From NCBI RefSeq assembly GCF_020149915.1, contig NZ_CP083760.1, forward strand, positions 1,054,001 through 1,118,000: 64,000 nucleotides of DNA. The letters are read 5' to 3'. This DNA comes from Candidatus Sulfidibacterium hydrothermale (GTDB lineage: Bacteria > Bacteroidota > Bacteroidia > Bacteroidales > F082). This document shows, piece by piece, positions 15,498-32,434 of the stretch. Each line of letters starts with the position of its first letter. The first letter of the stretch is position 1. Under the pieces are notes generated by a model. That model searched no databases, had not been told where the DNA came from, and saw only the letters and a program-made list of their open reading frames with translations. Both the position numbers and the translations under genes were made by a program.

Positions 15498-15533
15498 AAA
15501 AAGAGACTGTCTTTGTTAAGACAGCCTCTTTTT
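15498..15533 (-). terminator. Terminator at the far end of the tRNA-Met array
   Basis: 16-bp stem with one mismatch (arms 15498-15513 and 15518-15533), loop TGTT, with A/T runs on both sides. It sits directly behind the last tRNA 3' fragment and differs from the hairpin found inside every repeat unit. It is probably the original terminator of the tRNA-Met gene before the array grew. Confidence 0.75.
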
Positions 15534-15534
15534 G

Positions 15535-16310
15535 TAGCGAGGCCGAGAATTGAACTCGGGTCCGCCAGCCGGCGGATATGAATCCTCCAAAATTTTTTCT
15601 TTTAAAAAAACAAAAGGCCAGAAATTTCTTCCTGACCTTTAAATGTAGCGAGGCCGAGAATTGAACTCGGGTCCGCCAGCCGGCGGATATGAATCCTCCA
15701 AAATTTTTTCTTTTAAAAAACAAAAGGCCAGAAATTTCTTCCTGACCTTTAAATGTAGCGAGGCCGAGAATTGAACTCGGGTCCGCCAGCCGGCGGATAT
15801 GAATCCTCCAAAATTTTTTCTTTTAAAAAAACAAAAGGCCAGAAATTTCTTCCTGACCTTTAAATGTAGCGAGGCCGAGAATTGAACTCGGGTCCGCCAG
15901 CCGGCGGATATGAATCCTCCAAAATTTTTTCTTTTAAAAAAACAAAAGGCCAGAAATTTCTTCCTGACCTTTAAATGTAGCGAGGCCGAGAATTGAACTC
16001 GGGTCCGCCAGCCGGCGGATATGAATCCTCCAAAATTTTTTCTTTTAAAAAAACAAAAGGCCAGAAATTTCTTCCTGACCTTTAAATGTAGCGAGGCCGA
16101 GAATTGAACTCGGGTCCGCCAGCCGGCGGATATGAATCCTCCAAAATTTTTTCTTTTAAAAAAACAAAAGGCCAGAAATTTCTTCCTGACCTTTAAATGT
16201 AGCGAGGCCGAGAATTGAACTCGGGTCCGCCAGCCGGCGGATATGAATCCTCCAAAATTTTTTCTTTTAAAAAAACAAAAGGCCAGAAATTTCTTCCTGA
16301 CCTTTAAATG
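15535..16310 (-). repeat. Tandem array of seven 111-bp units carrying broken tRNA-Met 3' halves
   Basis: Seven head-to-tail units start at 15535, 15646, 15756, 15867, 15978, 16089 and 16200; all are 111 bp except the second (110). Read on the minus strand away from the intact tRNA-Met, each unit holds a terminator-like hairpin with a T-run, an A-rich stretch, and the anticodon-loop piece GGATTCATA. Then comes the palindrome TCCGCC-GGCT-GGCGGA, then an exact 26-base copy of the tRNA-Met T-arm and 3' acceptor strand. The D-arm and 5' acceptor strand are missing, so no unit can fold as a tRNA. Units are almost identical, which means recent amplification or active homogenisation. The palindromes begin at 15561, 15672, 15782, 15893, 16004, 16115 and 16226. 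Confidence 0.95.
16278..16305 (-). terminator. Hairpin directly behind tRNA-Met
   Basis: AAAGGCCAG / CTGACCTTT (16278-16286 and 16297-16305) forms a 9-bp stem with one mismatch, and on the minus strand is followed by a T-run. The same hairpin recurs in each 111-bp unit, so the array contains seven potential terminators in series. Confidence 0.6.
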
Positions 16311-16384
16311 TAGCGAGGCCGAGAATTGAACTCGGGACCTCCGGGTTATGAATCCGACGCTCTAACCAACTGAGCTACCTCGCC
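16311..16384 (-). tRNA. tRNA-Met (CAT anticodon)
   Basis: A complete 74-base cloverleaf on the minus strand. The acceptor GGCGAGG pairs with CCTCGCT (G-U at the first pair), discriminator A; the D-arm is GCTC...GAGC; the anticodon loop is TTCATAA; the T-arm loop is TTCAATT. G1 rather than unpaired C1 marks it as elongator-type Met (or an Ile2 tRNA whose CAT is modified), not initiator. CCA is not encoded. The 31-39 pair is A-C. Confidence 0.95.
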
Positions 16385-31627: not shown

Positions 31628-32236
<609 letters not shown>

Positions 32237-32417: not shown

Positions 32418-32434
32418 CGCTACCGGACTGCGCT
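32418..32434 (-). pseudogene. Short remnant of a tRNA-Pro D-arm
   Basis: CGCTACCGGACTGCGCT repeats the D-arm of the intact tRNA-Pro (32339-32354) with one base missing, 80 bases upstream of it. The flanking CCCTGC and CCGG patches may be further decayed tRNA. The rest of 32363-32574 shows nothing else. Confidence 0.5.

Follow-up and report, generated by a model that had tools for sequence, protein, structure and literature searches.

Tandem hairpin-plugged tRNA-Met copies in Candidatus Sulfidibacterium hydrothermale that look like the ORF-less form of an apparently undescribed tRNA-anchored GIY-YIG nuclease cassette

The stretch of DNA analysed here, referred to below as the window, comprises 64,000 nucleotides of the genome of Candidatus Sulfidibacterium hydrothermale; a Bacteroidales_small_SRP match also makes Bacteroidales the probable order of the host. 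It contains seven near-identical broken copies of tRNA-Met lined up behind the intact gene, as the first-pass annotation had described and as TRF and the comparison of the units confirmed. When the array was compared with other loci, a recurrent and apparently undescribed arrangement was found, in which the gene of a GIY-YIG nuclease is anchored to a tRNA gene, and the window array looks like a form of this cassette devoid of an open reading frame (ORF). We consider it somewhat probable that the array is an amplified, ORF-less derivative of such a cassette, produced by break-stimulated recombination similar to that of phage SegB.

TRF returned a 111-bp unit in 7.3 copies (positions 15533-16336, 99% matches), and the unit spacings were 111, 111, 111, 111, 111, 110 and 111. 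The annotated length of 111 bp thus holds for six units, which are identical, and the remaining one, of 110 bp, is short of one A in a homopolymer. The tRNA-Met 3' end is repeated exactly at the seven places, as had been stated, over 27 bases and not 26 (28 with the next A). The intact gene was called tRNA-Met(cat) by ARAGORN, a call that covers both elongator Met and Ile2. Its promoter-proximal position, the different terminator at the far end and the terminator-like hairpin of each unit (7/7) all agree with the earlier description; nine terminator-like sites were present in the scanned region, against a shuffle mean of 2.2.

The annotation had overlooked what lies between these elements. In each unit, the 3' end is adjoined by the palindrome TCCGCCGGCTGGCGGA, and this in turn by tRNA again, in the form of the anticodon-arm piece GGATTCATA. 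Ten native bases, ACCCGGAGGT, located between CATA and the T-arm of the intact gene, are replaced in the units by a 16-base palindrome, called the plug hereafter. With both strands included, a loose pattern of this palindrome matched 27 times in the 64-kb window, whereas shuffled sequence gave 1.2 matches on average. The promoter scan detected no sigma-70-like site within the array, which is weak evidence because the scan covers this phylum poorly. Judging from the sequences, an assembly artefact is unlikely because arrays of like kind occur in other assemblies, including the complete chromosome of Marivirga arenosa, where two such units are present.

Table 1. Features of the tRNA-Met and tRNA-Ser arrays (positions within the window).
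Feature	Position	Strand	Source
Intact tRNA-Met (anticodon CAT), promoter-proximal end	16310..16384	-	ARAGORN and Rfam
Tandem array, six 111-bp units and one 110-bp unit	15533..16309	-	TRF and unit comparison
Unit 1 tRNA-Met 3' remnant (T-arm and acceptor 3' strand)	16199..16225	-	
tRNA-Met 3' remnants, other six units	16088-16114, 15977-16003, 15866-15892, 15755-15781, 15645-15671, 15534-15560	-	
Unit 1 hairpin plug TCCGCC-NNNN-GGCGGA	16226..16241	.	palindrome pattern search
Hairpin plugs, other six units	16115-16130, 16004-16019, 15893-15908, 15782-15797, 15672-15687, 15561-15576	.	
GGATTCATA, nine-base anticodon-arm piece beside unit 1 plug, repeated in every unit	16242..16250	-	
Unit 1 terminator-like hairpin	16278..16305	-	terminator scan
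Terminator-like hairpins, other six units	16167-16194, 16056-16083, 15945-15972, 15834-15861, 15723-15750, 15613-15640	-	
Different far-end terminator, presumably original	15500..15532	-	sequence; stem 15507-15524 listed on + strand by scan
Intact tRNA-Ser(gct), second array behind it	32147..32236	-	ARAGORN and Rfam
tRNA-Ser array, 191-bp unit; remnants 31956-31986, 31765-31795	31628..32146	-	TRF (31628-32177) and blastn
tRNA-Ser array palindromes	31636-31651, 31796-31811, 31827-31842, 31987-32002, 32018-32033		

The same palindrome, TCCGCC-NNNN-GGCGGA, occurs 29 times in this 3.27-Mb genome (reversed control, 0): the arrays behind tRNA-Met, tRNA-Ser and tRNA-fMet account for 18 copies, two 23S rRNA genes for 6 and other places for 5. 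In the tRNA-Ser(gct) array, the tRNA copy of each unit carries two of them. Hairpin-bearing tRNA copies were present at seven loci (Met, Ser, fMet, Val, Asn, Pro(ggg) and Pro(cgg)) when the tRNAs outside the rRNA operons were screened for fragments. The hairpin is located in the anticodon arm of the Val and Pro(ggg) copies, in the T-loop of the Asn copy and in the D-loop of the Pro(cgg) copies, and the palindromes of these four loci differ from the window plug. The plugged tRNA-Pro copies lie upstream of the intact gene and are 5' copies. By eye, a D-arm fragment of tRNA-Pro(tgg) was also seen in the window (32418-32433) upstream of the intact gene; it was not significant in blastn.

A GIY-YIG ORF is present at three of the seven plugged loci only, namely fMet, Val and Pro(cgg). 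The fMet array consists of six 356-bp units, each with a GIY-YIG ORF and the same plug as in the window. Each unit matches its neighbour in an adjacent pair exactly, and 7 or 4 differences separate one pair from another, a pattern that hints at duplication in pairs. Complete cassettes, single or in tandem, have the order intact tRNA, terminator, GIY-YIG ORF of about 80-90 codons, hairpin-bearing tRNA copy and terminator, the hairpin of the tRNA copy standing in place of an anticodon-side segment. The window unit shares this layout, being a Met-type tRNA copy with a plug at the same place, but it has no ORF; its tie to the nuclease lies in likeness and place. As for a leftover of the nuclease ORF in the window unit, a likeness was seen by eye, on which we base no claim.

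The association between nuclease and tRNA was also seen beyond this genome. A scan of named public genomes with the fMet nuclease, using peptide patterns none of which lies within the plug-coded tail, gave 49 loci, mostly in Bacteroidota. A tRNA lay at 500 bases or less in 38 of them (33 tRNA-Met(cat); 36 upstream on the same strand), whereas about 2% would be expected from tRNA density (arithmetic from 46 tRNAs). Among the 11 loci with no tRNA at this distance, five have less than 100 bases of upstream sequence, one gave no script match, and some retain a T-arm remnant. Behind many of the 49 ORFs stands a plugged remnant, and four Pedobacter loci (L145, L151, L154 and L162) carry the full cassette at a Met-type tRNA with the plug positioned as in the window. 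In addition, when 119 genomes of the order were searched with a profile, 49 had a match to the family nuclease at an E value of 1e-12. This search returned 30 loci, 20 of which have a tRNA within 500 bases (upstream on the same strand in 17); the profile had been built from members linked to tRNAs, and this genome's own array is among the 30.

The GIY-YIG catalytic domain (PF01541), which looks intact, was recognised in all 18 aligned cassette members. The fold model (pLDDT 95) is closest to the solved structures of UPF0213 proteins and of the structure-specific nuclease SLX1, and a dN/dS of 0.18 was obtained for the one measurable pair of three. In this genome, four small GIY-YIG genes stand more than 1.5 kb from any tRNA, and three of these genes pass the family profile at E 1e-12; a fifth adjoins tRNA-Cys, where no tRNA remnant was found. 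The link between nuclease and tRNA is therefore strong and not universal. A viral source was rejected, since one scan of viral contigs gave no relative. A coding role of the plug, as the SAGWRT tail of the protein, was likewise rejected: the ORF ends ahead of the plug in several loci, so that coding does not explain plug conservation.

Two patterns of hairpin plus T-arm were searched across genomes, class I with the TCCGCC palindrome and class II with the TCCCGA palindrome. Class I was found in 17 of 295 genomes, including some unrelated-looking matches (L122, L127), and class II, of whose matches a minority were inspected, in 30, which makes 44 genomes together; the reversed controls gave none. 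The class I matches include six tRNA-Ser genes (L113, L115, L117, L120, L129 and L137) that are intact according to ARAGORN and whose variable arm is the palindrome. At one locus (L134 in G188, 14 pattern matches), plugged tRNA-Met remnants are spaced 60 bp apart. With a structure-blind pattern that requires only that 13-18 bases separate the anticodon loop from the T-arm, 60 distinct Met-type remnants were collected, 59 of which form hairpins; 33 of 34 do so when the 16 rows picked by palindrome and the 10 obtained with plug DNA as query are set aside.

Among the distinct rows with a 16-base plug, 35 of 36 pair at all six positions, against 219 of 36000 letter shuffles. The paired changes seen were TCCGCT/AGCGGA, TCCCGA/TCGGGA and TCAGTC/GACTGA, and four of the six plug pairs show two-sided changes, in 1, 1, 2 and 7 related rows; the T-arm contributes much of the covariation score. 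Because the rows are related, the pairing supports, and does not prove, that the hairpin structure of the plug is under constraint. At the genome level, at least three palindromes were counted in 11 of the 119 genomes of the order (reversed control, at most 1). The nuclease is present in 9 of these 11 and in 40 of the 108 others (p 0.007), or in 8 of 10 without the present genome (p 0.015); with a few other cut-offs, p exceeded 0.05. Two palindrome-rich genomes (G065 and G068) have no nuclease; in G065, a plugged fMet remnant is present and the family nuclease was not found at E 1e-12.

The comparison of related genomes for the unit behind tRNA-Met, proposed in the first-pass annotation, was carried out on six congeners sharing the downstream gene. 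One unit was observed in G004, one decayed unit in G011 and no unit in G005, G002, G008 and G007, the printed stretches of all six having been read by eye; G010 has two remnants at the end of a contig. For tRNA-fMet, compared irrespective of synteny and within the stretches printed, two congeners carry the cassette (one each) and eight do not. The annotated topology of repeated insertion fits both the varying unit number at the syntenic tRNA-Met site, which concerns ORF-less units, and the fMet genes with and without the cassette. The integrative element proposed as the agent found no support: an integrase would not fit in a 111-bp unit, and in the longer fMet unit the gene encodes a GIY-YIG nuclease. 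The earlier reading is thus partly supported. The tRNA-fMet of the two cassette-bearing congeners is identical to that of six of the eight cassette-free ones, and a resistance change in the intact tRNA was therefore rejected.

The closest known system is SegB, a free-standing phage GIY-YIG homing endonuclease described, in the passages of PMC13096335 that concern it, as cutting within tRNA genes, with the motif RAWTSGAAC, and as present in 718-bp tandem tRNA-segB repeats whose formation involves homologous recombination. In our own reading, the reverse complement of this motif resembles the T-arm. To judge from these passages, both systems have a GIY-YIG gene beside tRNA genes and tandem repeats of tRNA plus nuclease gene, and amplification by homologous recombination, stated for SegB, would likewise apply to the cassette. 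Unlike SegB, the cassette resides in bacterial chromosomes, its putative nuclease of about 80-90 residues has UPF0213 and SLX1 as nearest solved structures, its tRNA copies are incomplete and hairpin-plugged, and its cutting is putative.

According to the mechanism we propose, the nuclease would break DNA at the tRNA locus, and recombination between the tRNA-derived repeats would then insert, amplify or lose units, similar to the way SegB amplifies tRNA genes. A unit circle undergoing a single crossover in the T-arm/acceptor region would give the observed order, in which the intact tRNA is kept and the plugged copy is pushed outward, while the hairpin would make the tRNA copy unable to decode. 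Units devoid of an ORF would either be relics or be mobilised in trans. More speculatively, the nuclease may also cut at the hairpin when this is extruded as a cruciform. Such cutting would explain why the plug varies in sequence but keeps its structure, and why no protecting change is required in the intact tRNA. A wider proposal, which we put forward tentatively, is that of a new minimal selfish element: an SLX1-like GIY-YIG nuclease would cut its own hairpin inside a non-decoding tRNA copy, the flanking tRNA parts would serve as homology arms carrying the break to tRNA genes, various tRNAs and palindromes could be used, and ORF-less copies would ride along.

Several observations count against the cassette reading, namely the ORF-less window unit, the plugged loci with no ORF, the GIY-YIG genes with no tRNA, the palindrome in 23S rRNA and tRNA-Ser, the lack of a target-resistance change and the small number of two-sided plug changes. 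One rival is plain tandem duplication. A plugged partial tRNA copy would have arisen once and been multiplied by unequal crossing over, and the nuclease would not be involved in the window array. Tandem repeats need no dedicated enzyme in order to expand, the window units differ by one homopolymer base, four of the seven plugged loci of this genome have no ORF, and the pairwise identity of the fMet units is what local duplication would leave. However, this explanation, possible but doubtful in our opinion, accounts neither for the same layout at many tRNAs and genera (44 of 295 genomes, a minority of the class II matches having been inspected) nor for the adjacency of nuclease and tRNA. It is improbable that the array is kept for tRNA-3'-like small RNAs or as a decoy, like rtT RNA. 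Plug and T-arm do remain paired across genera, but a terminator closes every unit, no promoter-like site lies inside the array, and the T-arm likeness may stem from recombination with the intact gene. In the E. coli tyrT locus, which gives rtT RNA, a short tRNA 3' end recurs in every unit of a tandem repeat; in contrast to the window array, these repeats are not known to have a replaced arm or sister units that encode a nuclease. A literature search for tyrT repeats or rtT RNA gave no paper on them among the matches listed. A classic integrative element, whose integrase would insert repeatedly at the tRNA 3' end, is disfavoured and very improbable. Islands and phages integrated in tRNA genes also leave an intact tRNA on one side and a 3' fragment on the other, as in the array topology, and tRNA fragments from integration are common according to PMC9897764. 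However, neither the window unit, which measures 111 bp, nor the fMet unit contains an integrase ORF, the ORF of at least 60 codons in the fMet unit being the GIY-YIG ORF, some copies lie upstream as 5' copies, and the copies retain parts of the anticodon arm or D-arm.

The weak point of the cassette reading is the hairpin, which is present beyond the cassette. For its origin, spread of the REP/RAYT kind is a serious rival: the hairpins would be REP-like elements moved by REP-associated tyrosine transposases (RAYT) and settling in redundant tRNA copies, the GIY-YIG genes being bystanders as far as the hairpins are concerned. Such elements are likewise short palindromes scattered in numbers that vary from genome to genome, the present palindrome being frequent in some genomes only (at least three copies in 11 of 119). 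This genome has six Y1-transposase matches, and a RAYT gene (NF047646, 1.8e-27; L066:2095-2649) is separated by about 240 bases from the plugged copies of tRNA-Pro(cgg), so that two class II plugs stand near it as part of these copies; inverted repeats of its own occur close by. Furthermore, the outer TCCGC/GCGGA of the class I plug is also present in inverted repeats, ATCCGCG..CGCGGAT, located near two Y1 genes. However, this likeness is confined to the outer five pairs, the repeats differing inside the stem from both plug classes, and the three plug patterns are absent around the other five Y1 matches. In contrast to REP elements, the plugs lie inside tRNA copies and rRNA arms, often replacing native bases, and insertion alone does not explain why the same ten bases are replaced in the Met-type copies. 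Palindrome-rich genomes also tend to carry the nuclease. We regard this account as unlikely for the array, while for the hairpin itself RAYT and the nuclease are both candidates. Rickettsia palindromic elements also lie within genes, tRNA genes included; they are longer and are not known to have a linked nuclease or tandem arrays.

The 23S rRNA genes bear on the same point. Each of the two (L048 and L049, identified from sequence and operon layout) contains three TCCGCC-NNNN-GGCGGA hairpins. By eye, two of the three occupy sites of other hairpins in one distant genome, a single comparison, as 16 genomes were searched and only this genome and the distant one matched. Since the palindrome also occurs in the variable arms of tRNA-Ser, it spreads beyond the cassette, and something else may spread it; hairpin replacement, in 23S rRNA too, would need its own mechanism.

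No published report of such chromosomal arrays was found among the matches listed, which is weak evidence as subscription journals lie mostly outside the search. Among the docking sites of mobile DNA, tRNA genes are the best known; integrases provide most of this docking, and the cassette would be another route. If true, a cassette on initiator-type tRNA genes could account for stray tRNA pseudocopies annotated in Bacteroidota. It would also be a cellular counterpart to SegB, for which the open question of donor self-cutting would become testable. Finally, in one genome (L231 in G061), GIY-YIG ORFs are surrounded by several tRNA-Val copies that are nearly full-length and altered in the anticodon arm.
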